From Polytrichum commune (taxonomy: Eukaryota > Streptophyta > Polytrichopsida > Polytrichales > Polytrichaceae), in contig OX485806.1 of the NCBI GenBank assembly GCA_950295325.1, positions 30,070,001 to 30,134,000 on the forward strand: DNA of 64,000 nucleotides. Reading direction: 5' to 3'. Every line of letters begins with the position of its first letter. Position 1 is the first letter of the stretch. This document shows positions 2,908 to 54,899 of this stretch, one piece after another. The notes below the pieces were generated by a model. It saw only the letters and a list, made by a program, of their open reading frames with translations, searched no databases and was not told the origin of the DNA. A program made the position numbers and the translations under genes.

Positions 2908-3514
2908 GCTGCTAAGGGATGTTCAAGCAATGAGCGTACAAAGGTGAAGCCGCAACACTTAGGGTTTAGAGAATGTCGGCGAGCCTTCTCAGGGTCCTCT
3001 GGGGCATCCACTACCTGGAATACCCTCTGGGACATGTGGGAAAAGGTCAGTTACATTGTTTTTTTACTGGCGTCGTAGATACCAGTGTTTTCTTGGACGT
3101 CATGTAAGACACCCAATGCGACATGTGTTTAATTCGAACATTGTGCGCTCCCCATTGTGTGCGGGAATGAAAGATCCAGGTCATCGACGTGACCATTGTG
3201 GTTTCGATGTTCTGCAGCAGTCAAATCCCTCACGTGGGTGTGTATGGAACACACTGCCGTGTAGTGTGTGACCTTCATTTTGGTGTCCAGGAAGATGTCA
3301 CAATTGACGCCGACAGATCAACAGCAATGTCCCCATGGACATTCTCAGTGACATCCACCCTGGAAGAGACACTCCGCATAGTGTCAACGAATGGTGTCCT
3401 CTGTTTATATCAATGCTCATGCGCAACACGACCACGCGGAGACCTTGCGGAAGCGCTGTAGGGTGTGTAACATCGGCCCAGTGAGGTAACATCTTCCAAT
3501 TCGGGACACGCAAC
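2908..3514. promoter_or_regulatory. Intergenic DNA between divergent CACTA genes, rich in GAYGTC words
   Basis: Between the two divergently oriented CACTA genes are many copies of GATGTC/GACGTC/GACATC-type words, for example TTGGACGTCATGTAAGACA near 3095, AGGAAGATGTCACAATTGACG near 3290 and CAGTGACATCCACCC near 3345. In characterised CACTA systems short clustered repeats are transposase-binding sites close to promoter and ends. A shared promoter here is inference; no clear TATA box was assigned. Confidence 0.35.
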
Positions 3515-5272
3515 ATGGGTTCGGCTGTGCGTCGTGGTGCAACCATTCGTTTGACGGACGATGGACGCACACTTCGTCACGTGCCAATAGGGGATTTGAT
3601 ACTTCACACGGAGATCCGCGTGGCGACAGAGAACAATGTGCACACATTTAGATGTCCTTGCAAAGACTGCAAGGGTGGACGCAGAAAAACCATACAAATT
3701 ATACGGCAACACCACGCGGCAGTTGGCCGTGATCCATTTCTAACCAAGTCTTTACTAGGCGGTGACCCCGTCGATGGATACCCACCGTCTGGAATGTGGG
3801 TGGAGGACGTCTGTTGTGACAACGACGTTGTAGAAGACATCCCTTCGAACACATTACCTGAACCCGTGGACGCCGACAACGGGGCACTTCCCCCACCCCT
3901 CCTGGATGAATTCCATGAAGTTGAACGTCAGGTGCTGGAGGCACTGGGCAGAGGGGATGCACTCCACGAAGAGGCCGTAGCTGAAGGACGTTTGCATATG
4001 GAGAACGAGGAAGACGGAGACATCGAAGATGAATTGGATGGTTTGTATACGGAAGCCACGACTCCAGTGTACCCGAGTTCAAAAATGAGTGTTGTGTCCG
4101 CCACGATCATCATAATGAACATGTGCTCGGTGTTCCGTGTGAGCAATACATTTACCGATGAGTTGTTCCGATTTTTGTCTGGAGACTTGTTACCAATGCC
4201 CAACAAGTTGCCCAAAACTCATTATGCGGCTCGGAAGAGCATCCGTCGACTTGGATTGACCTACAACAATATCCATGCATGCCCCAATGGTTGTATTCTA
4301 TATGACGAAGAATATGCAAATCATGATTTATGTCCCAAGTGCACGGCGCGACGATGGCTGGATGGCAGCAACAACATTCCCGCAAGAGTAACCCGTCACT
4401 TTTCCCTAATTCCTAGGTTGAAACGGATGTGGCGCTCGTCTGAGATAGCGCGTCTATTGACAGGTCACACCAAACACGTCAGCAGTGATGACATCATGCG
4501 TTCTGTGGTTGACAGCCCTGCATGGAAGCACATCAACAATGACGTCGCGTTTGGCAACTTTGGGCGTGACGATAAGAACATGAGACTAGCTCTCGCTTTG
4601 GACGGAGTGAATCCTTTTAAACTAAACAACACCAACTGGTCGACGTGGCCGGTATTGATTTTGATTTACAATTTCGAGCCATGGTTGGTAACTAAAAAGT
4701 TTTTTATCTCGTTGTGTATATTGATTTCCGGGAAGAAGTCGTCGTCCTCTTCAAACATTGATGTGTTTATACGACCGCTTTTGAAGGAGCTACAAGAGCT
4801 TTGGCATGGTGTTGAGGCTTTAGATTTCTCCCAACCACAAGGGAGTCGCACTTTCACTTTGCGTGCCATACTTATGTGGACCATTTCCGATTTTCCCGCT
4901 TTCAGCCTCATTTCTGGTCTTACTTGTAAGGGCTACAAGGGGTGCCCTTGTTGTGGACCAAACACCGATGCGATGATGGCAAAAACCAGAGACATGCTTC
5001 CAAATCGGAGCATTAGGGGCACCAAAATTGTTTACGGCGGCATTCGTCGTTATTTACCCCGTCACCACCCGTATCGCCGGAATAGGAGATTCAATGGGGA
5101 GGAAGAGGAACGTCCTAGGCCAAAACCGATGTCGGGGGATGATATCATTCGATACGCAGCTTGGCGCGATTCATACCTACAGATGGGCGGGAGAGAGAAC
5201 GGACCCAACGATCCTGTGCATGTCACAGGCGTCAAAAGACTTAGTGCGTTGTTCGAGCTGGAATACTGGCAG
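3515..5272 (+). CDS. TNP2-family CACTA transposase, main exon
   Basis: This is the catalytic-type transposase of CACTA elements. Features in order over 586 codons: an N-terminal RxxxRHVPIGDL region; a Cys-rich segment FRCPCKDCKG; a zinc-binding block with HACPNGCILY and HDLCPKCTARRW (about residues 250-280); the TNP2 core LALALDGVNPFKLNNTNWS followed by WPVLILIYN; then SGLTCKGYKGCPCCG and MSGDDIIRYAAWRD. The exon ends at a clean donor (TACTGGCAG|GTGATT). Joining it to the next exon at 5502 restores the expected EYWQHLLERHIL. The long uninterrupted frame shows recent activity; later exons are damaged. Start is at the first Met of the frame. Confidence 0.85.
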
Positions 5273-5501
5273 GTGATTCCCGTATAACAATTAATGTTTG
5301 CACATCCTGTCCACAGATGTTGAAGTGGACATTGCGACGTCCATCTCAGTCACGTAGTTTGTAATGATGTCCACCAAGACATCTGACCTAACGCTTCAGG
5401 CCATGATGATTACCAGCTTTGCTCATACGGATAGACGAGGCATGCATGTGTCCATGAAAGTGCTGGCAATGTGTCTGAAATTGGCCATGTGTCTTGTGCA
5501 G

Positions 5502-6690: not shown

Positions 6691-6920
6691 TCAAGCCTCG
6701 ATGATATATACTGTCACCCAATGCAAAATACCTGTGCCATGTCAACTGTGACATGCAGCAGTGCATGAGGATGTGTTGGACATGATGTCCCAAATGACAT
6801 TCTTTCTGAGATATACGCGTCACATGTGATATTGCAGATGATGGCCATCACACTTTTGCATCACCTTTATATACATGCAAAGGCCATTTCTAACCACAAT
6901 TTAATGGCACACAACCTTGT

Positions 6921-7771
6921 GCAGGGAGTTTATGGCAGCTAGAGTTTCGCGTTGGAAAGAGAGGGAGGCCTTTCGGAAAATGTGTCGCCGCCGGCATCCA
7001 ACTTTGGCAGTGCGGTATCCGTTGGAACTACACGATCTTCCTCCCTTTGCAACATGGTTGACGTCGCGTCTGTCACGTCAGCGTTCCTCCGGCGAAGTTG
7101 TGGACGTCGATGTTGCGCAATACGCGCAACCTCCCGAGCGATATGCAATCTCACACCGGAAAATGTATGCGTTTGGCATACACTTCCGAGTACGAGGTGC
7201 TGAGGGTGGCCTCGTCACGCGCGATTCATGTGTGGTGGCCTCATTTACACGACAAATACCATGGGGCTTGAGAAATGGGCGACCCATAGAGACAACCGAG
7301 GAGTATGTGGGCTACATCAAAGAGATCTTGGAGCTAGACTACCGAAATCATTGCACCACTGTGCTAGTGTGCGATTGGGTTCGCCCAAGTGCAGATCCTC
7401 GACACCCTAACATCACACGGGATCAATATGGTTTCACCGTTGCGAACTTCAACCGCATGGATGGCAAAGTGCACTCAAGCTCTTTTGCATTTCCATTGCA
7501 TTGTCAACAAGTTTTTTTCTCCAATGACCCGACGAGGCCAGGATGGAAGGTTGTATGTCGCACGGACGTGAGGGGTAGACGTGGGCAACTACAAACCAAC
7601 CAGACCTTACCGCGCATAATCGATGTCGGCCACGATGCTGACTTTGTGGGTTTACAACCACAAATGCAAGATGTAGAGCCCACTAGAAAGCCCGCAACGG
7701 ACGGCGGCATGCACATCCCAGCCTCGTTGGATGTTCGTGGGGAAGAAGAAAACGAAGGAACACAGTATTAG
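6921..7771 (+). CDS. DUF4216-like C-terminal part of the CACTA transposase gene
   Basis: An acceptor (CTTGTGCAG) precedes 6921. The frame encodes EFMAARVSRWKEREAFRKM at the N-terminal side, and YGFTVANFNRMDG, SFAFPLHCQQVFFSNDP and GWKVVCRTDVRGRR towards the C-terminus. The last segment matches the usual DUF4216 pattern of plant CACTA proteins (a QQVFY-DP...GW.VV core). It is uninterrupted and ends at 7771. In plant elements this domain follows TNP2 and DUF4218 in the same transcript, which fits the order here. Its biochemical role is not known to me. Confidence 0.7.
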
Positions 7772-8865: not shown

Positions 8866-10786
8866 GCAACATAGAGTGTGTCCTTCGCACTCCAAAATGT
8901 CCAAGCTCCTCGTGCACTTGCCGCACCAAAGAAGCTCTTTGATTTGGCCTTGGAACGATGCGCCTCGTTCCGTTCGGCCACACATGAAATAACAAGCTGT
9001 TTGCCCAACGAAACCTTGTTATCCGGTGACTAACTCTATCTCGCTCCATAGCAGATAGTCCAAGAGGAAATATCCCTTGCTGAAGTTTGTGCAAGACCGC
9101 CTGGTCTTCCCACACATCACTAACAACGAGAGATTTATCAACCTCCTCATCTTGTTCTTCTACAAGGATCTTAGCAGCCAATCCCGACATCATTGTGAGA
9201 TATGTGGCAGCATGCCAACCCGGCACTGCCTCACGATCACAATCTCCATGCCACCTGGCTCCAGTTAAATCCTCATCTGAAGGACTTGGATTGCGAGACA
9301 ATCCGTCTGCATCCAAGTTGGCAATTCCTGCTCGGTGAACAACTTCAAAATCATATTCCTGAAGTAACAATGCCCACCTAGCAAGTTTCCCAGTGAACTT
9401 ATCTGATTTCATAAGCCATTTTAAAGGCTGATGATCAGTCACCAAAGTAAACTTTTGCCCATACAAATAAGGTCGAAAATGTGCAATGGCCCAAACGGCC
9501 GCCAAGGCCTCGCCTTCATAAGAAGAATAATTAGATTCAACATTATTATTGCTTCTAGATGCATAAGCCACCACATATTCTTTTCCCTCTTCATCTTTCT
9601 GTATCAATACCGCTCCCAATCCCACTGCACTCCAATCCGTGTGCAATTGAAAAGCTCTAGACACATCCGGGCGTCGAAGCACTGGCGCTGAACTGAGCCT
9701 CTGCTTCAATGTATCAAATGCCTGTTGTTGTTCCCGACTCCAAATCCATGGTTGGTCTTTCCCCGTGAGAATGGTAAGAGGTTTGGCAATCAAACTAAAG
9801 TTCTTGACAAACCTCCTATAATAATTTGCCAATCCTAGAAATGCACGAAGCCGTGGTACATTACTAGGTGCGGGAATTTTGTGCAAAGCATCCACCTTCG
9901 CCTGTTGCACACCAAGACCGCCAGGAACAATCATGTGGCCTAAATAGGGCAATTGATCATGGAAAAACTTATATTTTCCATGATGTAAACGGAGTCCCCA
10001 CCGTTGAAGTCGTTCAAATACCGTTTGCAAATGTCTCACATGATCCTGTGGACTATTACTAAAAATGATAACATCATCAATGTAATATCTAGCAAACGAC
10101 AAACCAGCCAATAATTGGTCCATCACCCGCTGAAATTCAGCTGGTGCATTCTTGAGACCAAATGGCAGAAATTTCCAATGATAAAGTTGATCCTTGCCAT
10201 CTTTATCAATTCCCCAAAATGCGGTCTTCACCCGATCACCCAACAACAAAGGTAATTGGTGATAACCAGACCTCAAATCCAGAGTGCTGAAGATTCTAGA
10301 AAATCCCAGTGCATCAAACAACTTCTCCGGCATCGGCATTGGATATCGATCCGACTTGGTCTTGCGGTTGACTGGACGATAATCACCACACATCCGTTTT
10401 TCCGTCCAGTTGCCAAAGATATCCTTTTTTGAGGGTATAACCGTGGCACAAGCATACTCTCCATTGGAGAGTTCAATCAATTCTGCTGCCAATAACTCTT
10501 GACATCGAGTTTGAACACCCAACCTTTCAGAGGTACTAAGTCTGTACGGCCGTCTGAAAATAGGGTGGTCGTCCTCGAGTTGAATACGAACATGTTTACC
10601 TTTATATCCTTCAAGATCATGAAGACTAAAGGCAAAACAATTACGGTAAGAGCGAATAAATGCCCGTACCTTTCGTGTTTCGGCACCAGTAAACTTTGGC
10701 CCCACTTCAATTGGCCAATCGTCAAACTCCGTGGTTTCCTTCTTCATAGAAGGATTGCCACTTGGTGCCAGCACAGCCTGTGATTG
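8866..10786 (-). CDS. Gypsy reverse transcriptase, RNase H and truncated integrase
   Basis: About 640 codons in the polyprotein frame. RT has KRMCGDYRPVNRKTKSDRYP, FSTLDLRSGYHQ, WKFLPFGLKNAPAEFQRVMD and the catalytic YIDD (10084-10073). RNase H follows with FQLHTDWSAVGLGAVLIQKD, SSYEGEALAAVW and TLVTDHQPLKWLM. The segment ends in the integrase HHCC zinc-binding start VRQVHEELGHFGVRRTHSM, where CACTA sequence replaces the next codons, so the Cys pair and DDE core are missing here. It is separated from the methyltransferase block by a TAG at 10789-10787. The order RT-RNase H-integrase is that of Ty3/gypsy. Confidence 0.95.
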
Positions 10787-12463
10787 CTAGTCCGTGGAGA
10801 GGGCAACACCTTTGCCCCCATCATCTGCACTTGAATCCAAATGCGTATCCTCTCCACTACAATCAGTTTGTGTAGCTAAATAGCTACCCACATATGAAGT
10901 ATCACCAAGAAATAGAAGTGGAAACATTTTATGGGCCTCCAACTTCCCAAACTCTAGGGCCAAAGCCGAAAAAACATGTTGGGCTCGAAGCTCTTCCGCA
11001 ACATAAAGTTTCAAAGGAAATAATCCCTCGATGTCATTGACCTCAATGTGATCCTTGGATTGCGGCTCCATTGCCCCCTGACCATTGTTCTCTGTCCTCA
11101 GAGTAAGTAATTGGTCATCCATACGTTGTTGAGCAGCAAGACAAATTCCAATTATCCACACAATGCTATTAAGATCCATAGCTTGCCCCAATAGAAAACG
11201 TCTCTGACCTTCCTGAAGCCCGTGAGCAGCCGTGGTACCTGTAAGAAAACCCATGGCGCGTTCCCGCTCATCTGCCGTAGGCTCCTCATAAGTTTGGGAT
11301 TTTGAATCCCAAACCATGCCAGGTCCACGAGATCGAAATGCAAAAGATTGTGGATATGTCACAAAAGTAGGTAGTGCACCTCTCGGAATTCCCACCTTGT
11401 TAATTAATGCAAATGGCAAGGTGTCATCCTTGGTAACGGCCAAGGAAACACGATGATCATCTAAAATGTCATCCACCTTGCGATCCATAAGGCGGGGAAT
11501 GCGGACAATCGCCGCTGAAAGCACCCGAGGTGATACCAAGTTGGTCCAAAACCAACGAGGCCGATGAGCAAAGGATCCCAAAGATGCAGCATCCAGAAAT
11601 GTTGGAGTACCCAGAATTTGGTTAATGTACTCACCATCCTTCACCACTTTGTGCCGGGTATCACCCAATAATGGTACATTTTTGAAAATGTACCCTGACG
11701 GAGTTGATTGGTGGGTAAACCACCATTGCGTCAATCGCATCAAATCCGCAAACAAACTAGACCTAGGATCATCCAATCCCTGGCCAGTTCCTGCCCGCGA
11801 ATGGCCTTGACAAGGCCATCCTGCAATAATCAAATCCACGTGGCCCAACCTTCTCAAATCCTCATCATTAATCATAGTGACATCTTAAGGAAGTTGACCA
11901 CAACATCCATAAATGGCAGAGGCTGACAATTGTGCGGGGTATCTCAACAACAATTGTTGGATGTGGTGTCGGACGGCTCTGTTGGCTGCATACCCATTGT
12001 CCACATGAATATATCGCCAAACTGTAATTCCAGCTTCCAACACTGCCGCCAAACCTGTGCCAATGCCTCCAAAGATCTCCACAAGGACAATACCTTCATG
12101 TGATGGTTGCCAACGAATGGGTTGAGCAAAAGAAAATGAGGATGAAATTGGAGGTGCCTCTCCAAGCTCCAAATCCGCTACAATGTGTTGACAATGGTCG
12201 GATAACTCCTTAGGAGTTCGCCATGGTGGAGGTGGATCCTTGAAATGTCGAGCAGAAATTTGAAAAGATGGTAAAAATTGTTGTTCTGCCGCATTACAAG
12301 TGTAATCCATTGTTTCCTCCAATAAAACTGGAGCACAAGGCAAATCTGCAACTGAACCGCTGCAACCAAACATTGCCTCCGCAACCATAGTCATAGCAGT
12401 GGCTGCAAATGTGACGGGAATAAATACCTTCCTGCCATCTCCAGTGGACCATTCCGGTCTAAT
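10787..12463 (-). CDS. C5-cytosine DNA methyltransferase domain embedded in the gypsy polyprotein
   Basis: The fold is that of DNA_methylase (C5-MTase) enzymes, which transfer methyl from S-adenosylmethionine to cytosine. Motif I: EIFGGIGTGLAAVLEAG (FGGIGTG at 12073-12053) followed by YIHVDN. Motif IV: LIIAGWPCQGHSRAG, with the catalytic Cys at 11812-11810 in Pro-Cys-Gln. Motif VI: YIFKNVP (11686-11672), where the usual Glu of ENV is Lys. Motif VIII-like: HRPRWFW (11566-11546). C-terminal block: RERAMGF, then RRFLLGQAMDLNSIVW (about 11200-11156). A TAA at 11887-11885 falls between motifs I and IV in an otherwise continuous frame. A 120-residue linker then leads to RT. The domain lies after protease (TGA at 12466-12464) and before RT. 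This copy is almost certainly inactive (stop plus Glu-to-Lys). The closest host family (DRM, CMT, MET1 or DNMT3-like) cannot be settled by eye. Confidence 0.9.
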
Positions 12464-13543
12464 TCATGCCTCTTCCGTCCAATTATCCAAACCAAAGCCA
12501 AGTGGGTAAAGAGCTTGCTGACCAACAAGTATATCATAGTTGGTAGCATTAGTAACAACACACTTCATTGACAAATGAGTGTAAGTAGGCCCTGCCCCCA
12601 CATGAAAAATCAAACGTAGAGGTGCATTGGTGTAACCTGTTGCACGTTCAGTGTCCCCTACTAAAGTCACAATAGTGAATGGACAAGGATCCAAGCTTGC
12701 TGGCGTCAATCCAAGACTGTCAGCAAGTCCTTTGCCAATCATAACCGGTTGAGCACCGGAATCCATCATAACTCTCAGTGGTGTAGCACGGATAGTGGGC
12801 ATATCCGTGCGTGAAACGACAAACAAAGATTTGTCGTTCATCAGCCGTACAACTCCAGGTTGCAAATTATGCCGTTCGTGAACAGGCCTTGCAGAAATGT
12901 TTGCAAGATATGCCGCTCCCGACGCATAATTCGAAAATGACGTATCCACTGCTGACATTGATGCTGGAGGAATATCAGTTTGCTTACCAAAAGCAATGAT
13001 CGCCGCATCCGCAAGACTCGCTCGCAAATTGGCTAAGTCCTCCACCTCCTCAGCCACAGGTACGTCAACCACAGCTTGGGATACTTGAAGGGATGGCAAA
13101 TCCGCCTTACCTTCTAACATTCTCCCAGCTAAATGAAAAACTGCAGCAGGCTTGAAATCCGAAGCCATAAACTCCGAACCCAAGAAAATTGGCATATGGA
13201 GAATTTTATATGCCAATGTCTGCGTAACATCCTTCGAGATGGAATCCCCATCTCTCAAAGGTACAGGGTTTTTAGCCCCAACAACAGTGGTGTCTACCAA
13301 TCCAAATGAAAGAGGTAAACGTGTTTGACCAATTTGATCAGCTGGTCCGGCATGGCGAGGATGTAGCACCTCGTTGCTACCACCACTCGTGGAAGCCACC
13401 GCATCTGCCAATGTTTGTGAGCGAGTAGAAGCCGCCGCCACCACCTCTCCAGCTGCTCCAAACATATACATGTCCAAACCCGAGGTGCCACCACGCACAT
13501 GCGGCTCAGAAATTTGAGCAAAAGATGTAAAAGAGTTGAGCTT
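12464..13543 (-). CDS. Gypsy aspartic protease region
   Basis: In the polyprotein frame, a spacer of about 230 residues leads to a retropepsin-like domain with the active-site triad in LRVMMDSGAQPVMIGKGLAD (DSG near 12762). It continues through a GxxxATGYTNAPLRLIF stretch to NYDILVGQQALYPLGFGLDN near the C-terminus. A single DSG site fits a dimeric retroviral-type protease that would process the polyprotein. It is bounded by in-frame stops: TAA at 13546-13544 and TGA at 12466-12464. The next codons in frame lead directly to the methyltransferase. Confidence 0.85.
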   Translation of the reverse strand, partial: KLNSFTSFAQISEPHVRGGTSGLDMYMFGAAGEVVAAASTRSQTLADAVASTSGGSNEVLHPRHAGPADQIGQTRLPLSFGLVDTTVVGAKNPVPLRDGDSISKDVTQTLAYKILHMPIFLGSEFMASDFKPAAVFHLAGRMLEGKADLPSLQVSQAVVDVPVAEEVEDLANLRASLADAAIIAFGKQTDIPPASMSAVDTSFSNYASGAAYLANISARPVHERHNLQPGVVRLMNDKSLFVVSRTDMPTIRATPLRVMMDSGAQPVMIGKGLADSLGLTPASLDPCPFTIVTLVGDTERATGYTNAPLRLIFHVGAGPTYTHLSMKCVVTNATNYDILVGQQALYPLGFGLDNWTEEA

Positions 13544-14884
13544 TTACTCAAGCTCTGCCACCTTAGCCTCAAGACTCTGCTCCCTTGGAGACTTTCCAGT
13601 GACATAACTGGCAGGCCGCATCTCAGGATGAAGTTGGAAACAATGATCCACATCGTGATTAGTGCCACCACAATGGTTACATTTCAATTGTCTCTTCTTA
13701 GAATTGTCCCCTGCCTTTACTGGTTCCATCTTTTGTTTTAATTTTCCCAAAGGCTGAGTTTTCTTCTTCTTAGGACAATTGGGATCATTCTTCGAATGAC
13801 CAGCTTCTCCACAACCCCAACAATGCAAAATCTTTTGCTCCTTGACGGGTTGAGTCTCAACTAAACTACTAGTAGCTGTGACAATTCTTCTTGGTTTCGG
13901 ACTCTTTGTTATCCAAGATACCATATCCGTGGCATCATGTTGGCAAAGAGCCCGATCACATCTCTCAACCACGGCAAACGCTTGTGCAAGCGTAGCTCGG
14001 CCCTCGTAGTCGAGGATAATCCGAGGTGATGCCAACTCAAGTAGCCGCTTGTCAATCTTAGACAAAAAGATTTTAACAAGCTGACTCTTAGCAAAAATAC
14101 CTCCCGACTCCACAGCAAATCGCGCGAGTCGCGTATACATGGTCCGTGGAGTATCATCCTTCTCTCAGCGGAAATCCTGGATGCGCTGCATCTGGTCTCG
14201 CCGAAACCCACCATACTCCACTTCCAAATGTGCGACAAATTCAGTAAGGGGATTAAACGGAGGTGGTGGACCAACAACCGTCAATGCTGCCTGTGTAGCA
14301 CGTTCCACCCGTGAAAGGGTTGCCGTGCTACTGCTAGCCACCATTGGCCCAAGTGCCAGTTCCGTGTCCTTAGACTCCGCCGGCGATTCCTCCTCCTTTA
14401 AGGTGGGTGGAGCTAAGGTAGCAACCGCCCCATCCTTAAGGGCTGAAATGAGCTCAACCCGAGCCTCCCAATACTGCTCCACCTCCCGAAGTTGTCGCTG
14501 ATGACCCTCTATCCAGCGTTCATAAGTTTGGAGTGCCTCATACTCCAAATGTTGAGGCAGAAGTTCAAAGGCATACCAATCATTGAAATTGGAAGACCTT
14601 TGGCGTTTCTCCTTAATCCAGGTACGAAACCGGAGTTTCCAATCGGGCAAGGAAATGCCCCCAGCTCGACCTGAAAACCGATCACGCACTGAATTGTGGC
14701 GATCGTCCTCCATTTCGTCGAACGTGCCGACACTCCAAATCCGAAGCCTACTAGTAGTGTCCAACGCCGAAATAGGCTCAAAAGCCTCGTTGGTATCTAC
14801 CTCTGGCTCAAGATTTGTGGTATGCACGTCCTCCAAGTAATCTGGTGATGGAGATCGATAATATCGGCTCCTAGTTTGCACCAT
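13544..14884 (-). CDS. Gypsy Gag with two CCHC-type zinc knuckles
   Basis: The polyprotein starts MVQTRSRYYRSPSPDYLED at 14884. A long N-terminal region ends in RDQMQRIQDFR, where a TGA (14167-14165) interrupts the frame. It resumes with a Retrotrans_gag-like segment (TRLARFAVESGGIFAKSQL, then KRLLELASP). Two nucleic-acid-binding knuckles follow: CWGCGEAGHSKNDPNC and CNHCGGTNHDVDHC. A lysine-rich linker separates them. A TAA at 13546 marks the end of this block. Gag would package RNA into the particle. The ATG is chosen because it is the first in frame and follows the leader. Confidence 0.85.
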
Positions 14885-16594
14885 AAAATAATCACTTGAG
14901 TACCTGCAACTATCTACAAGGTAATGGCAACTTGCACCTGTTGCGGGCTATCTAAATGGCAATCCCTTGCCAAATGCCAAGTGTTTATGCCCCCAGAATT
15001 CCAAAATTGTGCAAAGGTTTGAGATTGGTAATTAAAATGAAAAATCAGCGTTGAAAAGGCTCATTTCCAAGGTGATTATGGACTCCAATCAACAAACCAA
15101 GTGCACCAATGGACTCCTAGGAAGATTTCACACAAATTAGGCTCAAATTTCACTTCGTTCGGAGTTAATTTGCTCCCAAAAACAAAAATCAGCGTTGAAA
15201 TTAATAATTTCAGCAATGATTTTGAATTCCAATCAACAATCCAATTACACCATTGGATTCCTTGGCAAATTTCACACAAGATAGGCTCAAATTTCACTCC
15301 AATCGGAGCTAGTATGCCCCCAAATTTGAACCTCAAAGTTTGTGAGAATTGGATGCCAAGTTTGAAAGGTGAAAGTAAAAATGTGAAACAAAACAAAATA
15401 AAATAAAATAAAAATATTTGTTTTAATTAAACAAAACAAAAACAAAAACAAAAACAACTTAATTAACTTTAATTAATTAACTTAATTAATTTAATTTAAC
15501 TCAACCTAACTTAATTAACTTAAACTAATGAACCTAACCTAATTAAGCTAACCTAATTTAATTAACTAACTTAATTAACTAATTAAGTTAACTAACTTAA
15601 TTAAATAACTAACTTAATTAACTTAATTAAGGGCTTAAAGAAGGATATCTTTGGTAATCAAGGGCTTACCTTGAAAAAAAGGGGGGGCCAGGCTGCCGCC
15701 GCCCGCCACCTGGGCCTGGCTGCCGCCCGCCTGCCCCCGACCCGGGATTTGCCACCCCCGGGATTCAGAATTGGAGCTCCAGGAGCTCCAAGAGCTCCAA
15801 GAGGGTCCGGTGAGCTCCGGATCCGTCCGGAGCTCAACCAAAATTAAAACTAAATCGGATTTTGATTGTGGTTTATGTTTGTATTTAAATTAAACTTTGC
15901 TTCACAATTTGCAAGCAAGAAAATGTGACTTGAGAATCTTGAAACTAAATGGAATCTCAAGATTCAAACATCAACAATTGAAGAAAATACAAGAGACAAC
16001 AAAAGAAAAATGGGAAGATTTCTCTCAAAATCTTCTTGAGGATTGCAAGAAATGACGAACTAAGCTTTCAAACACTTGTATCACTTATTTGCTCTCATTA
16101 CTGGGCCATTCTAGCTCAGAAATACAACCAAAAATGAAAAATTTGAATAATTGTTGTCAAGTATGAGGGTTTCTCTCTCCAAGCTTAAGAAACTAAAATG
16201 TCTCCTTACAAAGCTTAAAAAACTCTAAAATTCACACACAAGAGTCAAGCTATGTCTCACTCCACGAAGGGAGAATCCAAGAGTGCAAGTGGTGGAGAAA
16301 GAATGCAAAGGCTTTACTCATAATCTACTACACCATAGCCATGAGAAAGCAACAACAAGCTCTCTCTCTCTCAAAACACACTCACAAGACTTGACTTGAC
16401 AACAATGGCAAGTCAAGAGGCCTTCCTCTCCATACAACCCCAATCCTATGTGGAGTTCATCCATGGAGTGGATGAACAACTAACTTGGACTCCCAATGGA
16501 GTCCGTTACTCATCCCAACACACATGGACTCCTAATGGAGTTCATTTACTCCTAAATTGACGTAACTTAGCCCCCGATGTCACCTCACGTGACA
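14885..16594 (-). repeat. Probable 5' LTR and leader of the gypsy element
   Basis: The stretch between the gag ATG and the MULE coding frame has no coding support. Its outer edge reads TGTCACGTGAGGTGACATCG on the minus strand, a plausible LTR start. The inner LTR boundary and primer-binding site were not found, and the partner LTR is outside the window, so extents are uncertain. It contains a tandem duplication (about 15,041-15,330), an extremely AT-rich TTAATTAA tract (about 15,400-15,640), a GC-rich patch (15,680-15,840) and a short CT microsatellite near 16,365. Confidence 0.5.
15041..15330. repeat. Imperfect tandem duplication of about 146 bp in the leader/LTR
   Basis: Two adjacent copies each begin AATCAGCGTTGAAA (15041 and about 15187). 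Each contains CCAATCAACAA, a GGA(C/T)TCC block, ATTTCACACAA, TAGGCTCAAATTTCACT, a CGGAG word and a (T/G)CTCCC or TGCCCCCAAA end. They differ at many positions, so the duplication is old relative to the coding region or is a conserved LTR feature. Confidence 0.7.
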
Positions 16595-19390
16595 AAACCA
16601 TCACAACTAATATCAAGAATGAATTTGGCCTTACCTATCGTAGGTCCTCTTGTACTGGACACCTTGAGTGCCCAAACCAGAGTTGTGATTACATTTGCAG
16701 GAACAATGGCAAGGTAAACTGCACAGAGTGGTCTGGAGTGGCTTTGATACCATTTTCAATTGGAGGGGGTCCAAGTGAGAAATCCACATTAGCGTGTAAG
16801 GTTTGTCAAACACCTCCCATTTGCTTAGCATTATGTGATGCTAGAATCTACCATGTGTCGTCCAATGACAATGATGTCATTCGTGCTGCAATCCACTTAG
16901 GATGTCACAATCATCCAGTATCTCAAGGAACATGTCAAGATTCCATGGACATTATGTATGATTGTGTTGCCAAGGAAGTCCAGAAGACTCCTAATGCAAA
17001 GAACTCTGCTATCATCATGGCGGCAAGTAAGAACTATCTTGCGGATGCCTTGATTCGTCCAACTCCAAGCGGAAGCAACCTTCAAGGAGCATCTATGGAT
17101 GTTGTTATGGACCAGTTTGAGACGCTTACTTCACCAAACTTACGCAACTTCGTATCTGGAACAAAGAGATTCTTCCGTTAGGGGAGAGGAGTTACGGATA
17201 GCATTCTCAAACTCAAAGACTACTCCAACTTTGTTTTCATCCACCAAAATCAATTTCCAGGTCAAAACAAGGGAAAGGTATTTGTTTTTAAGATGTCCGT
17301 GGACCGTCCAGGGAGTGGTGTGGACTTGGTGAAGCGCATGCAACCTGGCGGTGACCTTCAAGATTGTTGGGTCATGTTCGACCATGTGAAGCGTGTTTCT
17401 AGTTGGACTACTATGGCATGCCATGTCTACGACAGCAAGTACTGTAAGGTAATGACCATTGCCCTTTGTGATATGCAATCTGAGGATGCAGAAGCCCAAG
17501 AGTTGTTTTGGCTTCATCTGAACGAAGTTATGCGGAAGAATGGATTAGAGACTACAAACTTCAAGGGCTTCATGGCTGATAGTGCTGGAGCCAATTGGCA
17601 CGCCGCTCGCAAAGTATATGGCAACGGAGATCCCAACAAATGCATGGAGAACCGGGAGCGGACATGTTTGTTTCACTGGACAAAGTGCCTTCAAAGAGCC
17701 ACCTCTAAAACATTCTACCGGATTTTCAAGACCAACACATCGCTATGTGCAAAGTCTGGAAGGATGCTAAGTCTCAAGAAGAAGCAGAAGCGCAGTATAA
17801 CGTCATTCGGGGTTGGTGGCTTTCATCTGGTGCTACAACAGAGGATGGAAGGCGTTCTCTAAATGACTGGATGGCATTCTGGCACTTTCGCTACAGACAG
17901 TGGGGCGGCTCTATGCAACTTGTAAGTTTGTGCATCACTTCACATGTTTTAATACACTAAACCTTCACTGTAATTCATATCGTTAGGCCATTACTCATCT
18001 TTGCATGTGGTTTCTCCAGGACCTCACTCTTGACGAGAGGGCGGACATGCCTTCTTGCAATCTAGCGGAAACTGTCCACAACAGATGGCTGCAACAGTCC
18101 GGAAACACAATGACATGTTTGTACGAGGCTACGGTGGACGATCTCGTTTGTGCTTTCATGCAGATTACAAGCTACCGATTTTGGTTGAAAGGGGGGAAGG
18201 GAGGAAAGGGACCAGACAAATCTGAACTTCGTTTACGCCATGCACAACGCTCTGGAGACCCTAAGCTAATAGCTGAGGCGGTTAACTCTTACCCTGGGGC
18301 TGCAGATCTATTGACCAAGAAAGGAGGCCTTGAGGGCGCAGAGATTTTTGGGTCCACAAAACGAAAGTTAGATTTGCCACCAGGATCAAGTCATGATTCG
18401 CATCGGTCGGATACAGTGAATTATTCTATTCCACGTGATGGTACCAGGTCCACTAAAGCACGCATTGAGGAGGAACTATCTAAACCTGACTCGGGCGTCC
18501 AACACACTACCTCCGTTTTGGAGACCAACTGCAATCCTTTGAAGTGGCACATTGCCCGTCTTTCAAGCAAATCCGCACGGAAATGCCAGGCCATGTGTGC
18601 TCATACTAATGAGAAATGCGATACCAGAGTAGGACGAGGTCCACATGGCACCCATGCCCCTACGTATGTTGGCGATAAGAAGGGGTACAAAACTCATCGA
18701 ACTATTTCTACAAAATTTTGGTTTTGTGCAGATGACATTAATCGATGTGTGAAGGGGACGAAGAAATTCTTTGTGGTAGGTTGGCCATTTGTTCCTATGA
18801 CCTGGCCTGTGAAGAAGGGTGCAAACTTAACTATGAAGGAAATCTTGGCTCTAGAAGAGGCAGGTTTCCAACTCCAACAACGTAGTGCCTTATCTCCGCG
18901 CCGTCAATTCCAGAATGCAGCAAACATGCCACTTCCAAGATCACATTTCCCAATTCCTGTGAATCCAGACTCACATCCTACAACTTGAGACGGTTTTGCC
19001 ATCAGAAGAAGCTCAGATGCACCCACTCCTGAGCATCGCAATAAGTGGAGCAGTGCAGGACTTATGAACAATTGTCATGTGACAAGCGTTACGTCCATAT
19101 CATACCCTGCATATGGGTGTGTTATATCCATGGATAGTGGTAATGGAAAGGTGTATTGTATTACCATCACCGATTTACCGGGATGTACCTGCCCCGATTT
19201 CATGAGCATGACATCAGAGACCTTAGGAAAGAAGGGTCAATGGAGGTATTGCAAGCATGTGTACTACATCTTTCGCTATTTCTGCAAAATGGATTACAAA
19301 GTGGACACTTTCATGCACGCACCCAGCTTTCGCTACAATGAGGTTATGCATATTTTAGAACTTGCTAAAGTTGCTGAACCACTTGTGTAG
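16595..19390 (+). pseudogene. MULE-like transposase gene with SWIM zinc finger, disabled
   Basis: The frame is open from the retrotransposon edge. It encodes a Cys-rich N-terminal region (SSCTGHLECPNQSCDYIC) with CKVCQTPPICLALCDARIYH, then a Mutator-type DDE core: DCWVMFDHVKRVSSWTTMAC (first Asp), FMADSAGANWHAARKVYG (second Asp) and CLFHWTKCLQ. A TAG at 17179-17181 lies in frame, and a one-base shift between about 17,690 and 17,735 moves reading to the frame with WKDAKSQEEAEAQYNVIRGW. A GT-AG intron spans 17,922-17,986. The last exon has a TGA at 18,986-18,988 before the SWIM finger LPGCTCPDFMSM...WRYCKHVYYIF (about 19,170-19,280). The N-terminus is missing because the gypsy element inserted in this coding exon. 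Confidence 0.7.
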
Positions 19391-28323: not shown

Positions 28324-31300
28324 TTAGACCAAAGTGAACAAAAACAACAACAACAGCAGCAGCAGAAGCAGTAGAAAAACCTTGCTCATTGTTGGACGTT
28401 GTCCGGGGTCTTCCTGTACACAAGCCAAAGCCACTTTCGCGACCAGCATTACTTGGTCAACATTTACATCCTCGCTTAAATGCTTGTCCACAATTTCGGA
28501 GAGGTCGCTGCTCACAACCTTATCATACACCCACACATGGAAGAAACACTTTGCAGAGCTGACCTTAAAGTCGACATTCTTCCTGCCACCGATTAGCTCT
28601 AACAGAACCATCCCGTAGCTGTACACGTCACATTTTTCGGTGATGGGGGTGTTGCTAACGAACCATTCGGGAGCCAAGTAACCTCGGGTACCCCTCACGA
28701 CCGTGAATGTGTCGGGCTCCTGCCTATCGATGAGCTTTGCAAGCCCAAAGTCGGAGAGCTTTCCTGAGAAATTCTCGTCCAAAAGAATGTTCTCGGGCTT
28801 GATGTCACAATGGATGATTCTTTTCCGACACCCCTCGTGCAGGTAAGCAAGCCCACGCGCCATGTCACACGCGATCGAAAATCGTTGTGGCCAAGTTAAG
28901 TCGTTCCTCTCGGTGATTTTCTTGAACAAATACTTGTCGAGTGAGCCGTTGGGCATATACTCGTAGACAAGAAGCCGCTCGGTGCCTTCGAAGCAGTAAC
29001 CAAAAAAGCGCACAAGATTGAAGTGATGGACATTGCCAATCGTACTCACCTAGAACAAAAAGCCACCACAAAGGGATGAATAAGGTAGACATGCATTATT
29101 CTCAGTACAGGGCCATACCATGGCCAATTGAAATTGAAATTTGCATGGTCACATGCGTTCAAGTGTAGTGTAAAGTCATACGCGACCGGGCTCCCAACCA
29201 AATTCTATTTCACTACCATCCTATTCATGTAGGTTCTTTTACGCAATAATTTTCATGATTATTGCTTCCCTCAAGGGTAATGAGATTTTGAAGTGTCATG
29301 GTCTTGCGGTTTTGTGTTAAAGAAAATTCTTTGAGGTGAGCTTGATGCAAAATCTGGTACACCATGAGACCTTTGCCCATTGCATGCCATGTAGAAATCC
29401 ATGTAGGTCTGGCTTATCCATACAAACTTCCTTTGTCCCTTAGGCCCTCAATATCTAGTGTAAAGTGCCCCTTAACCACATCTATTCGGAGGGCTTGGGC
29501 CTCGGTTTTCAAATTAGCAAAAATATTTGGACCCTGAACTTAGTTGTTCAATGCTGTTTGTCTTTTCTTCAAATGGTTATAACTTATTCCAGGTTGTGTT
29601 TACGTACTTCGGCCCGAAACTGCTTTTCGCCTTGCCCAAATCCTTCGAGTTTCTTCACAGCAACCGCTTGGCCGGACGTAAGAACCCCTTTGTAAACGGC
29701 CCCAAAACCACCCTGCCCGAGCTTGATACTGAAATTCTCGGTCGCTACAAAAAGCTCCTTGTATGTAAATCTTGTGGGTGCCTCGGACACCCCATCCATC
29801 TCAAACTCGAATGCCTCGTATTCCTTGCTACTTTTCTCGAAGCTGCAGCACCGTGTCATCACAATGATGATAAATAATATTATCACGCCCACACCTCCAA
29901 TTGTCCCTGCAAAACAGAAACTAACAGTTCTTACCGGGAACAAAGTGCTTTCATCACTGGGAACACTTTGCTGGAAATAAATTATTTCATCACTGGAAAA
30001 CTTAAGTCTTTCATTTTCAAATCGAGTTACACGATTCTCAGTTTTAAGTCACCATCCTGCAATACAGAATTGGCAGCAGGCTTGGGAAATCTCCATCAAT
30101 TCGACCCTTGGGTTCTAAATGCATAAGTTTACATTACATGAGAGCATTCTGCAACTAAAACTTTTCGGATTTTGATTGAAAAACACATCGAGATATAAGA
30201 AAGCTGCAAGTACCTCCAATGATACCCCTCTTTCTGGCTTTTGAGTGCTTCGAGGATCCTGCAATAAAATAAACAATTAATTTCATATCACATTCACAAC
30301 TTCTGAGCATGTCACCTTAGGACTTTTCAACACAAGGTGTAACTTACAGGTGATACTCACCCTGGTTTTATGCATGCAATCATACTTGAGATGAAGATGC
30401 CTCTGACAAATTAATCCTTGTGGGCACCTATTTCGAAAGTAAGATCCATGCTACACAATACAGTTATCCTTCAACTCAAAGCGACTTCTTGTCGGGAGTT
30501 GGTCCCCTACGATTTTTCATAGCTTGTTTTGCATACAAAATCAACAATTTCTTTCCACTCGTGGTGCATCCTCATCGGAGGAAAATTTTGGGTTAGAGGA
30601 TCAACCTAATTCGTAAGGTTCATAGAGGGCCAAACCTATTTTTAGTACTTCTTGGAATGCCAAAATGACTCGGTTTCACCCTCAAGGAACCGATATAGAA
30701 TGATAGTTCAAAAACCTCCACACTACCTCCAAACATGCACCGAAAAACTTAGCAAACATGGAAGGAGTTCATGTATGCAAAACAACCAACTCCCCACTAA
30801 AAGTCATGCTGAGTTAGAGGATAACTCTGATGATCCATTACAGATTGTTTTGTTCATCAACATTAATTGCAGATGATGCTGGACGTACATTATGCTTACC
30901 TGGAGGGCAGACAGAAGTGGTGTTTGAGCCTCCACAAAGGCATGAGAAGCCATTTGTGGTGTTAAAACCACAGGTCCCGGAGCTATTTGAGCACAAGCCG
31001 CACTGCTTAGCCTCCGCTGCAGTTTCAGTCCACGCTAGCTCAATGAAGAAAGTGAACTTGCTGATGTCTGTGGACACCTGGTTGTAGTTGTGAAGACTTG
31101 TGTAGCCCGCGCACCTGACTTACATGATAAGTGTTTCACATGTCAGCAGGTTTTTAAAAATAAAAATAAAATAAAATCACTCTCTTCACTCCATCACCTT
31201 GCCAGCAAACTCCACTTCTGATAAGTAGTTCTACATTACAGTGCAACTTTGATTGCAGTAATGTGAACCCATTGATCATTGCATCTTAACTCTCTTAAGA

Positions 31301-33049
31301 TTAGTATATAGTGCAGACATCAAATGGCAGGCACCAGAAGGGTAACAATTGCAGCAGCAAAAGTAAACCAATTGAACCAGAGTCTCACTGAAGTTCCCTT
31401 TCAGGTTGACAAGAGTTTCACATGTCAGCAGGAGAAGAAAATTCACTCTACTCTTGACTCCATCACTTCGCCACGAATCTGCGCCTTTTGACAATTCTAC
31501 CTTACAGTGAACTTTGATTGAAGTTCTGTAAACATGTCATTGCATATTAACTTCGTGGAGATTATTAGCATTTAGTACACAATTATGCACCCCATAACTG
31601 CTCGTACTCTCTGTCTCCGGTGCTTAAGAGCCTCCTTCATGGTGCGGGTGCATACTTTGTGAATATGTGGGCTAGCAACATCATCACAAGCACAAGGAAA
31701 TGGTGCAGCGGTGAGGATGGGCATAAATTTATTTATTTTGTGCATCTGAAGTTATCATCTGTATACCGATAATTCTATCATTGACATGACCCTACATGGA
31801 GAGAGTGGTTCAGGAAAATTTAGGAAACTTCACCACCCGGAGCCCTTGATCATAACCCCCAAAAAATAGAACAAAATGTGAAATGGAGGACCATTTGTGA
31901 GCTAGAAACATCATCACAAGCTCAAGGATATGGTGTAGCAATGCAGCATGGGCATAAATGTTTTTGAGCAGCTGAAGTTGTCATCTGTCTATCGGTAATT
32001 GAGTGTTTCAGGTTGAACTCCTGATGGACATGACCCACACGGAGAGAAAAATTCGAACAAATTCAAGAAAATTAATCACCGGAGCCCTTTGATCATACCC
32101 CACAAAAAAAAAATTAGAAACAAATTATGAAATGGAGTATTTGTGGGCTACCAACATCATCACAAGACATAAGGATATGGTGCATCGGTGCAACATGGGC
32201 CATAATGTTTCTGTGCATCTGAAGTTATCATCTGGCCGCCGGTAAAATTGTAAATGACATAACCCTACATGGAGAGAATGATTCACACAAATTCAAGAAA
32301 GCTCATCGCTTGGAGCCCTTGATCATACCCCCAAAAAATGGAAAGGTTCGGACAGAATGAAGAAAACTCCCCACCCCTAGCCCTGGATTATACCAAAACA
32401 AATTCCTAAAATCGAAATGGAGGAGAAATTTTACTTACTTCAGCAGAGAAAGATCGATGGAGCTGTTAGTTTGTTGAGTAAGACCACAACAACCCGTCAC
32501 AAGCTTCGAGGCATCCGTGTTAGCATAATCCGCACAAGTCTTGAACGCACTACACGCAGGCGCCGACGTATTGCAACTAAACTCGGAAGAATGCACAAGA
32601 GTGGCATTCGTCACACAATTCAGCAACAAAAGATTCTCGTTCCCATACAGAGAGAATTTGGTGGAATTCACGGTAAAGTTCTGCCCGGTGACAAGTCCAC
32701 CGTTACATGTCGTCATGGAAGAGTCCGAAAGGGCAACAGTTTTGTTGTTGTAATCTATCGATTGCACAGCGTAGGTTCCGGACTCGGCTACAAAATTGAG
32801 AGTACTTGAGTTTTGGCACTTCAACACATTTTGAAATTCGGAGCTCCCACATCCGCTGTCGATGCCAAAGGGGTACTGTACATTGATCCCTCCACATGTT
32901 GTTCTACATGAGGAAGAATCTGCCATTGCCGTGGATGTGAACATAACCCATACCATAATCCATACAAGTGAAGCAAGCATCAAGAACTTGGGGTTATACT
33001 GCATTATTGAGACTTCTCTGCTTCTTCTCCGAATAATTAACATCCCCAT
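28324..33049 (-). CDS. LRK10L-type receptor-like kinase (5 exons, 631 aa)
   Basis: Exons, all with GT-AG borders and consistent phase: 33,049-32,439; 31,114-30,900; 30,257-30,213 (45 bp); 29,906-29,608; 29,049-28,324. A signal peptide ([14 protein letters not shown]) precedes a GUB_WAK_bind domain ([21 protein letters not shown]) and a WAK_assoc-like domain ([34 protein letters not shown]). [20 protein letters not shown] spans the membrane. The kinase has a [11 protein letters not shown] loop, VAVKKLE lysine, [13 protein letters not shown] loop (HCD, a non-RD type), SDFGLAKL and YLAPEWF. It is a plasma-membrane receptor kinase thought to sense cell-wall or pathogen signals (family knowledge). 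The end is odd: after QRPTMSKV the usual QMLEG-type ending is replaced by about ten leucines from a CTG/TTG repeat and a stop. Alternatively a last exon is spliced from AGCAAG|GTTTTT. Confidence 0.85.
29108..29475. mobile_element. MITE-like copy in receptor kinase intron 4 (GGGCC family, degenerate)
   Basis: The interior matches the element at 41,117-41,618 over several blocks: AGTGT(A/C)AAGTCATACGCGACC-like sequence, CATGTAGGTTCTTTTACG versus CATGTGGGTCCTCACAG, TGCATGCCATGTAGAAATCC, and a right end AGTGTAAAGTGCCCCTTAA. The left boundary near the GGGCC at about 29,108 is uncertain. It is in an intron and not expected to alter the protein. Confidence 0.45.
31140..31700. repeat. Imperfect tandem duplication in receptor kinase intron 1
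   Basis: CATGTCAGCAGG occurs at about 31,138 and 31,421, each followed by a CTC(T/C)ACT-CCATCAC block, CTACATTACAGTG or CTACCTTACAGTG, and AACTTTGATTG. The period is about 283 bp. Both copies lie in the first intron of the receptor kinase gene. Confidence 0.6.
31665..32345. repeat. Three tandem copies of about 240 bp in receptor kinase intron 1
   Basis: GGGCTAGCAACATCATCACAAG (about 31,669), its variants at about 31,900 and 32,145, and the downstream landmarks AAGGATATGGTG, GCATCTGAAGTTATCATCTG, ACATGGAGAGA and GGAGCCCTTGATCATACCC recur three times in the same order. Spacings are about 230 and 246 bp. The copies are separated by short A-rich tracts. Confidence 0.75.
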
Positions 33050-34640
33050 CTCTTCCTAATTCCAACCTCTACAATATTGCCTTCCTCCAGATTTGGCCTC
33101 ACGTGATTTTTGTTGTGCTACTCTCATTCGAACCTCCATAGCCATACAGCGTCATGGTTTTCAGGTGACCTAGGATTAAAGAAACCTGTACGTAGATACA
33201 TAACCTTGAATATAGAGGTAAATTGAGAGCTAGATCAATTCGTGAACCTCCGAATCGATCACCATTTCAACTGATTTTGAGGTAAAGGACCACTCTGAAT
33301 AAGGAAAGTTCTGGCCCAGAGTTTCCCAAGTAAGGCTTCTCTCAGAACCGGGATTAGCGATGACTTAACTTAATCCTCCTTGCCTTTTGCATAGATTTTA
33401 ATCTCACCACACTGCCATAAGAACATCGTAACTACTTACGTCTGGTTGTTCGGTTGATTGCACTGTTCAGAAAGTGCAAATTCAATTGCACATAGTGCTG
33501 CCTCCTAAACCCCAGAAAGAAAGTCTCGAAGTTGGTAGATCGAGCTTGCAAGTGAATATTTCCAGTTGCAAAATCCTCGAAACTTCTAGAATACCTGCAA
33601 CCCAAAAATCCTGACGCATAAGCTCTTGCTCTAAAGTATCTGAATGAGCAATCTCTGCAGATTCCAAGTCAAACTGATTTGGAAAAAATTATAGCTTTCT
33701 GGTAAGGCTTATCCTCCCAGTGTGCATAGATTGATCATCTCACACTGCCATTACTAGAAATTTGAACTAACTTACGTGAGTCTGGTTGTAGGTTCTGCAC
33801 TGTGATTTAGGAACCGCAAACTAATTGGCTCTCAAACTCCAGAAGAGTCCTCGAAGTTGGTAGGTCGAGATCCATAAATCCTGCATAAACTCTATAATCT
33901 ATGTTAGAAGTTTACCGTTCGTATCTGTACTTCCTGCATAAGCTACAATCTATATTACAGGTTTTCGTGGCTGTAATTCCTGCATATACTCTAATAATCT
34001 ATGTCAGAACTTATGTGTCTATTCTAGGTTCTACCATGTCATTTCACAGCTCTTGCCTCCCTCTCAGACAATTTAAAACGGCGGTCGACTCTCCGGATGT
34101 TCAAAGTATCAGAGTATTTTGTACCACCTATGGTGAGGTTTAGTGTGAGAATTACTCGAAGTGTAAGGATATGCCATCAACACTGAGTCTCAACCACAGG
34201 CAACAAAAAATTATACTCGCCTCGGTCACAACTTGATGTCCTTCAACTGCAAAATCAAGTGAAACTCGTCTGCAAACTCATCCCAGCTCCTAATCACATG
34301 TATAGATTCATCTCAAACTGCTACCAAAAAACCTCATTAACTACGTCTGACTGTCTCTATTTGCACAGAAACTGCAAACTAATTGCACATAGTTTTGCTG
34401 GCACCTAAACCCCAGACAGTCCTCCAAGTTGGTAGGTTGTCGAGCTTGCAAGTGTTTCTCCCAGTTACAAGAAAATCCTCAAAACTCTAACTCTCACTCT
34501 CACTCTCACTCTGGAACTGCGGCACCAAAAGATCATTCCCTCAGTGACTGTACTACTACTCACGATCACTTGAAGTTCAAAACAGAAAATGCACCTTCGA
34601 AATCAGTTCTTCAGTTCCTACAAGAATTGATCTAAAGGAT
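33050..34640. repeat. Receptor kinase upstream region with three spaced repeat copies
   Basis: AAGTTGGTAG(A/G)T(CGAG) with CGAGCTTGCAAGTG occurs near 33,530, 33,857 and 34,428. It is preceded each time by a CTTACGTCTGG or GTCTGA block, GCAAACTAATTGCACATAGT-like sequence and CTAAACCCCAGA. These copies lie 0.4-1.5 kb upstream of the receptor kinase start on its promoter side. No upstream coding exon is evident. CTCTCACTCTCACTCT at about 34,493 is a short microsatellite. Confidence 0.55.
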
Positions 34641-48699: not shown

Positions 48700-49195
48700 A
48701 AGCCGAGGTAGCAGCTGGGTAAGGATTTCGGAGGAGGCTGCCAGTATTAGCAGCTGGGTAAGGATTTCGGAGGAGGCTGCCAACAATAGTAGTTGGGTAA
48801 GGATTTCGGAGGAGGCTACCAACATTAGCAGCTGGGTAAGGATTTCGGAGGAGGCTGCCCGCATTAGCAGCTGGGAAAGGATTATGAGGAGGCAGCAAGC
48901 CGAGGCGGCAACTGGGTAAGGATTTTGGAGCATATTGATAGCTTCGGAGCAGGCTAATAGCAATTAACAGCTGGGAAAGGATTATGAGGAGGCAGCAAGC
49001 CGAGGCGGTAGCTAGGTAAGGATTTCGGAGCATACTGGTAGCTTCGAAGCAGGCTAATAGCAATTAGCAGCTGGGAAAGGATTCTGAAGAGGCAGCAAGC
49101 CGAGGCAGTAGTTGGGTAAGGATTTCGGAGGAGGCTGCCAACATTAGCAGCTGGGTAAGGATTCGGAGGAGGCTGCCAACATTCGGCAGCTGGGC
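48700..49195. repeat. Minisatellite with a 39-bp unit
   Basis: The unit AGCAGCTGGGTAAGGATTTC plus GGAGGAGGCTGCCAACATT is repeated. Four copies in a row keep an exact 39-bp (13-codon) phase from about 48,709 to 48,865, giving SSWVRISEEA-type repeats in one plus-strand frame and SSEILTQLL-type repeats in a minus-strand frame. Further right the units vary in length and mix with GGCAGCAAGCCGAGGC(G/A)G. Expansion of a tandem repeat explains the open frames, so no protein is claimed. Confidence 0.8.
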
Positions 49196-54895: not shown

Positions 54896-54899
54896 AGCG

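Follow-up and report, generated by a model that had tools for sequence, protein, structure and literature searches.

A gypsy-like retrotransposon family of the moss Polytrichum commune with a DNMT3-like cytosine methyltransferase ahead of a predicted readthrough stop

Introduction

A family of gypsy-like retrotransposons in the moss Polytrichum commune carries a DNMT3-like cytosine methyltransferase (MTase) between its protease (PR) and its reverse transcriptase (RT), directly ahead of a conserved stop codon that is most likely programmed for readthrough. As reconstructed from the copies, an intact element would consist of a left repeat A1, a leader, ORF1 (Gag with zinc knuckles, protease and DNMT3-like MTase), the stop context UAG-CARYYA, ORF2 (RT, RNase H, DDE integrase and PHD finger) and the repeats B1-A2-B2. 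With moderate confidence, we propose that the MTase is produced in the same amounts as Gag, that its substrate is the cDNA of the element itself, and that RT, integrase and PHD finger are supplied by readthrough. The elements themselves inform us on the anatomy, the conservation of the stop and its context, copy number, recent transposition, the fold of the MTase and purifying selection.

Retrotransposons with a DNA methyltransferase seem to arm the machinery by which they are silenced. The published cases that we found are from an alga and dinoflagellates. In P. commune, a land plant, such elements are abundant, young and varied, and liverworts and Sphagnum have related ones. The predicted leaky stop would make the MTase a component of the particle, which offers a concrete and cheap test of its dose and place and makes the purpose of a DNMT in a retrotransposon directly addressable. 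Marchantia, one of the liverworts concerned, has working genetics.

Results

The window, by which we mean the whole stretch of 64,000 nucleotides that was analysed (positions 30,070,001 to 30,134,000 of P. commune contig OX485806.1, assembly GCA_950295325.1), contains a Ty3/gypsy-type element on the minus strand, at about 8866–16594. The plus strand across 10787–12463 is rich in stops; the methyltransferase coding lies on the minus strand. Translation places the parts from gag to RT in a single minus frame between 14884 and 8858, in which stops occur at 14165, 13544, 12464, 11885, 10787 and 8858. From its 5' end, the element is made up as follows (window coordinates).

16157..16594, minus strand: left terminal repeat A1, the 5' end of the element, starting TGTCACGTGA (blastn with the repeats of L037, a sister copy, and with its piece further downstream)
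14885..16156, minus strand: leader, from A1 to gag (homology to sister copies)
13544..14884, minus strand: Gag with CCHC-type zinc knuckles (one-frame translation)
12464..13543, minus strand: aspartyl protease region with DSGAQP (Pfam gag-asp_proteas)
10790..12463, minus strand: DNMT3-like C5 cytosine methyltransferase, core at about 11102–12127 (translation, Pfam, profile and structural alignments)
10781..10789, minus strand: conserved stop UAG plus CAAUCA (UAG-CARYYA context) at the MTase/RT boundary (sequence, comparison of copies)
8866..10786, minus strand: RT, RNase H and the start of the integrase zinc domain (Pfam, tblastn, blastn)

The element begins with TG at 16594, and a 144-bp tandem duplication lies inside its leader (15034–15321). 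Downstream of the MTase, Pfam identifies RT (E 3e-29) and RNase H (E 2e-38); the gag-asp_proteas match (E 1.7e-4, 22.6 bits) is under its curated cut-off of 28.2, and the zinc-knuckle matches, likewise under their cut-offs, lend weak support. An earlier note, made from the letters of the window, had placed the MTase between the protease and RT of a Ty3/gypsy element, and the one-frame translation and Pfam bear this out. The window copy is a dead element, because it has four premature stops (14165–14167 and 13544–13546 in gag, 12464–12466 at the end of the protease region and 11885–11887 inside the methyltransferase), an altered ENV motif and a break in the integrase. The break falls within the integrase zinc domain, where blastn with L037 stops at 8866 and tblastn of P0119 at 8867, and leaves this copy without an integrase core, a PHD finger or the 3' repeats B1-A2-B2. 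The stop at 10787 differs from the four premature ones in being conserved and is not counted as damage.

Several other features were seen in the window. Three plus-strand ORFs of 206–333 aa (16561–18988), with no Pfam match at E 0.001, adjoin the left end of the MTase element and are perhaps an unclassified transposon. The plus strand also bears a CACTA-type tnp2 transposase (3485–5287; PF02992, E 4e-62), an ORF with a weak DUF4216 match (6905–7771) and a second Ty3/gypsy-like element (52827–56112), split into separate pieces for RT, for RNase H and for integrase and distantly related to the MTase-bearing one (24–41% identity). Two minus-strand pieces at 28324–33055, one of a GUB_WAK-type receptor and one of a kinase, are probably one intron-bearing receptor kinase gene and fit a land-plant host; at 48863–49162 there are three 100-bp tandem units, the second 92% and the third 71% like the first.

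The minus-strand translation of 10790–12463 contains the motifs FGGIGTG, GWPCQ, (K)NVP, AHRPR, DERERAMGF and LLGQAMDLN. Pfam DNA_methylase (PF00145) matches the ORF at 10787–11875 with E 7.9e-10 and a score of 39.1 against a cut-off of 22 bits; the ORF at 11885–12394 by itself gave no Pfam match. Translation and Pfam thus confirm the C5 MTase that the earlier note had recognised by FGGIGTG, GWPCQ and LLGQAMDLN. Its description of a full domain holds for the presence of the motifs but not for the state of the window copy, which is dead, interrupted at 11885–11887 and reads FKNVP at motif VI, where 19 of 20 sister copies have FENVP. The six motifs are letter-identical in 13 of these 20 copies and show one to three departures in the other seven.

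Catalytic motifs I–X stand in unrearranged order with a DNMT3-type core, and the predicted fold is nearest to DNMT3, with profile comparison giving 1e-18 for DNMT3 and about 3e-4 for DNMT2. The nearest solved relatives by profile and fold are the catalytic domains of vertebrate DNMT3A/3B, which share the unrearranged motif order and an AHRxRxxW motif VIII, although identity in structural alignments is only 20–26%. Motif IV is WPCQ here as against the PCN of DNMT3A, PCN being the usual form among DNMT3 enzymes. Pfam found no ADD or PWWP reader domain in ORF1 of L008, a metagenome relative (a 9285-base contig binned with a cyanobacterium, eukaryotic by content), in which DNA_methylase and protease were the sole matches. 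The purifying-selection test that the earlier note had proposed gave dN/dS values of 0.49 for the MTase, 0.28 for RT and 0.22 for integrase, indicating purifying selection on the MTase, with a weaker signal than in RT and integrase. CpG observed/expected is 0.68 in one open copy, a value compatible with or without self-methylation.

The host assembly searched comprises 407.8 Mb in 64 contigs, nearly all of it in seven contigs of 42–78 Mb, a number that would suit the chromosome set of a polytrichalean moss. With the MTase ORF as query, 558 first-look candidates were obtained, and the 113 that were scored, including the window, are 86–100% identical over most of the query and are spread over all seven chromosome-sized contigs. 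With the RT ORF, the best 69 of 2855 first-look candidates were scored; scoring the best candidates alone under-samples old or truncated copies. A listed MTase match lies directly upstream of RT in 58 of the 69, at a distance of exactly 3 nt in 57 and of 6 nt in one. The 741 bases at the start of the remaining 11 were then examined, and at least the end of the MTase is present in 10; L070 keeps the last 68 MTase residues alone, and L071 has an MTase end at 70% identity. Because 68 of the 69 scored RT copies carry the MTase or its end directly upstream, the MTase is a trait of the whole family; these same counts go against the condition that the earlier note had named as refuting, sister copies that lack it. 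The sole scored RT copy of the 69 with no MTase upstream, L072 (G000 C7:30978843-30980762), nevertheless keeps TAG-CAATCA.

Twenty sister copies were retrieved whole, and the order gag-PR-MTase-RT is found in all 20, within the parts that each retains (L034 and L044 have no gag start, L043 is cut in RT and L039 has an insertion in PR). Integrase and PHD finger follow in 19, the PHD finger of L051 being shortened. From stop to stop, ORF1 has 1386 codons and ORF2 1047. The earlier note had also suggested a search for copies with the PR-MTase-RT order and an intact ENV motif, and this identified six of the 20 with both frames open and ENV in 19.

The integrase is missing from the window copy because that copy is cut, and the Ty3/gypsy domain order of Gag, PR, RT, RNase H and DDE integrase is found in L008 and the sister copies. 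Pfam resolves ORF2 of L008 into RT, RNase H, H2C2, an rve integrase and a closing PHD finger (PF00628, E 4.3e-10). By tblastn, a PHD finger ends ORF2 in 19 of the 20 whole sister copies, and many RT relatives are annotated with PF00628.

Two complete LTRs around an internal region, as expected of Ty3/gypsy elements, were not found in this family; the repeats are split instead, in the order A1-ORFs-B1-A2-B2 (L035-L067, L173-L176). A1 measures about 437 bp (567 in L045), and a second repeat of about 105 bp flanks A2, the copy of A1 near the right end, on each side, as B1 before it and B2 after it. Ty3/gypsy elements typically have TG...CA ends and short target duplications of 4–6 bp, and this family agrees with them here. 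Its outermost bases are TG, belonging to A1, and CA, belonging to B2, and a 4-bp target duplication was recognised in 11 of the 15 copies with flanks, the other four having no recognisable end. A second family has the same repeat arrangement, with 4-bp duplications, judged by eye, in two of two copies. Mismatches between A1 and A2 amount to 0–1.1% in the 11 copies to which the comparison applies (four further copies were not measurable) and to zero in six of them. The family is abundant and recently mobile. Between B1 and A2, the inner junction B1-GC-A2 (ACACGACA-GC-TGTCACG) forms a palindrome of the kind seen where a circle closes, and L008 retains this junction. The L008 contig has a 127-nt overlap with itself and was therefore assembled in circular form, perhaps representing a single A-ORFs-B unit.

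DIRS elements are not known to make target duplications. Split direct repeats characterise the PAT-type DIRS elements, with an order A1-B1-A2-B2 like that seen here (PMC4157794), but the present elements differ from these in having a DDE integrase, TG...CA ends and 4-bp target duplications. Pfam gave no tyrosine recombinase match in L008, which has the rve integrase instead. Since a DDE integrase coexists with split repeats, the sequences suggest DIRS-like restoration of the ends followed by gypsy-like integration.

In the window, the stop at 10787 reads UAG-CAA-UCA. Its conservation was assessed in 101 junctions, namely the window, the 20 whole copies and 80 of the 92 other scored matches. 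The nonamer TAGCAATCA is present in 93 of these, TAG-CARYYA in 95 and a stop of any kind in 98; one of the three without a stop has CAG, one is out of register and one differs otherwise. On average 0.67 copies differ per site in the nonamer versus 2.49 in 81 flanking sites (98 of 100 copies in register), a flank figure that drops to about 1.2 without three sites that differ in 19–67 copies. Conservation within the family is thus modest evidence, and the comparison between families is stronger. Searching the host genome with the distant homologue P0034 led to further families; of 14 of their junctions examined, 13 are TAG-CAA-TTA and one, in a third family, TAG-CAG-CCA. In L008, TAG-CAATCA stands between two long open frames. 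Across these four lineages, identity is 23–43% over the last 110 residues of ORF1, where alignable, and 49–80% over the first 120 of ORF2, yet the nonamers vary solely at the R and Y positions of UAG-CAR-YYA. This is the tobamovirus-type readthrough consensus, the pomoviruses having UAG-CAA-UYA (PMC3542737).

Other lineages have no stop between MTase and RT (fusions P0192, P0200, P0207 and P0210, of which P0207 and P0210 are from Closterium), and P0101 carries Tyr-Gln-Ser at the junction position. Among 67 MTase homologues with 85–160 residues after motif X, the commonest endings are ATK (9), GIQ (9) and STD (7), the last being also the final three residues of the window MTase. These recurrent endings hint that the stop is conserved among the database proteins too; many of the other endings may be due to contig ends.

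The position of the first AUG in ORF2 bears on how ORF2 is expressed. In L008 and in 13 of 13 TTA-family junctions there is none before residue 117, yet the residues ahead of that point are conserved, and re-initiation would leave them untranslated. In the window's family an AUG already occurs at residue 14, and in the third family at residue 5, so that re-initiation may operate in these two. The earlier note had described the MTase as encoded inside a gag-pol polyprotein. The shared frame agrees with this, but the conserved leaky-type stop splits Gag-PR-MTase from RT-RNaseH-IN-PHD, and the MTase most likely belongs to the Gag-level product.

Proteins matching the window MTase number 118 and include sequences from Calypogeia fissa, Marchantia paleacea, M. 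polymorpha and Sphagnum jensenii. In the protein sets, some of the bryophyte relatives have PR or RT attached, and in M. polymorpha Mp_2g26090 the PR, MTase and RT are collinear with the window. The L008 domain has 38 matches among longer proteins, including M. polymorpha Mp_4g09160 and Mp_6g11220. In one related lineage (P0225, P0236 and P0237), the MTase follows RT-RNase H and does not precede RT. The eukaryotic-looking retrotransposon sequences L008 and P0002 are filed under cyanobacterial and Obscuribacterales genomes, probably through contamination.

The RT proteins P0153 and P0173 of Klebsormidium nitens are 43% identical to the window RT, and Klebsormidium proteins fall among MTase-bearing lineages in an RT tree in which 50 of the 78 rows carry no label. 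MTase and RT identities correlate with r 0.77 over 14 elements, some of them close relatives. Because of this placement and this correlation, an old common possession of the MTase is favoured, though a single capture is unproven. A fuller scenario, which we put forward tentatively and regard as rather less probable than its being wrong, is that a streptophyte-wide, split-repeat, gypsy-like lineage acquired a DNMT3-type enzyme a single time, in a common ancestor of bryophytes and Closterium-type algae. The enzyme would have been turned into a Gag-level particle protein ahead of a conserved leaky UAG, where it methylates the element's own cDNA. Readthrough would provide RT, DDE integrase and PHD reader, and the ends would be rebuilt much as in DIRS elements.

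Discussion

How might such an element work? Most ribosomes would halt at the UAG, so that the MTase would be made at the same level as Gag and protease and would enter the particle in quantity, while readthrough would yield a small amount of RT-integrase-PHD. The protease would release the MTase, which would most likely methylate the cDNA of the element at CG sites while reverse transcription is under way or shortly afterwards, and the new copy would reach the nucleus already methylated. Readthrough itself, packaging, cleavage, enzymatic activity and cDNA as the target are the steps that we infer, and self-methylation of the cDNA is the likeliest role of the MTase. The roles suggested in the earlier note, such as shaping the element's own silencing or marking integration sites, are conjectural in the same way. 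Against it count the WPCQ of motif IV, the weaker selection on the MTase and the behaviour of the Klebsormidium gypsy enzyme, which showed no activity in yeast, a result its authors call inconclusive (PMC5890265).

The MTase could instead act on target chromatin, with the PHD finger reading the histone state and DNA being methylated at or near the insertion, which would steer integration or silence the locus. The PHD finger closing ORF2 in L008 and in 19 of 20 copies and the DNMT3-like fold agree with such a role, but the PHD finger is encoded in ORF2 with integrase and the MTase in ORF1 with Gag, with no known link between them after cleavage, and we consider it unlikely. It is improbable that the substrate is RNA in the particle, either genomic RNA or primer tRNA, as tRNA is for DNMT2: this would suit the inferred Gag-level dose and likely particle location, but in profile comparison the MTase stands much nearer to DNMT3 (1e-18) than to DNMT2 (about 3e-4). 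We likewise give little credence to a non-enzymatic role, for example in DNA binding or particle structure. The weaker constraint on the MTase than on RT and integrase would be in keeping with it; the exact motifs in 13 of 20 copies, ENV in 19 of 20 and catalytic residues unchanged throughout a 12-row alignment of relatives argue for catalysis.

Very improbable, too, is that the UAG reflects decay or is a plain end of ORF1, with ORF2 expressed by re-initiation, splicing or a separate promoter. The Marchantia gene models P0263 and P0267 appear spliced across the region, and the early AUGs of the window's family and the third family would allow re-initiation, but the stop is present in 98 of 101 copies and CARYYA in 95, three families and L008 vary at R/Y alone, and two lineages have no AUG before residue 117. 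The idea that a chance insertion or a chimeric assembly placed the MTase in a single element found no support and is rejected, given 113 scored copies on seven chromosome-sized contigs, sister copies with the same domain order, and relatives in metagenomes, three named liverworts and Sphagnum.

MTase-bearing gypsy elements are already known; what is new is the range in land plants, which takes in Marchantia, Calypogeia and Sphagnum, together with the predicted readthrough design and the PHD finger. As the earlier note had anticipated, the land-plant case extends the published alga and dinoflagellate cases, with related sequences also in Marchantia polymorpha, M. paleacea, Calypogeia fissa and Sphagnum jensenii. 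Methylase-encoding transposons have been stated to be absent from land plants such as tracheophytes (Morozov et al., 2019, PMC6338049), a 2025 survey repeats the streptophyte and dinoflagellate cases (PMC12344493), and our literature search, mostly of titles and abstracts, found no land-plant case of an MTase-bearing retrotransposon.

The closest known system is KnitGypsy-Dnmt3, a gypsy element with a Dnmt3-type MTase in the charophyte Klebsormidium nitens, which its authors consider to have arisen by separate acquisition within the lineage of Klebsormidium (de Mendoza et al., 2018, PMC5890265). It resembles the present family in its gypsy domain set with a Dnmt3-type MTase, its repeats structured like those of a DIRS element (Fig. 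4 legend) and purifying selection on the MTase. This likeness is by description, no protein named as the K. nitens MTase being among the MTase matches, most of which are nameless. Compared in the same way, the KnitGypsy-Dnmt3 MTase is described inside the Pol ORF, whereas here it lies in ORF1 before the stop, and the text sections of that paper mention neither a readthrough stop nor a PHD finger (PMC5890265). SymbioDIRS-Dnmt3 and SymbioLINE-Dnmt of Symbiodinium are likewise retrotransposons bearing a cytosine methyltransferase but belong to other classes, a DIRS element with tyrosine recombinase and a LINE, and two of the Symbiodinium DIRS enzymes methylate CG in yeast (PMC5890265). For the junction, the nearest parallel is the type I leaky stop of tobamoviruses and pomoviruses, with the same nonamer, a downstream ORF in the same frame and variation between lineages at R/Y alone (PMC3542737); here a predicted leaky stop of this type divides the Gag-PR-MTase ORF from the RT-IN ORF of a chromosomal retrotransposon.
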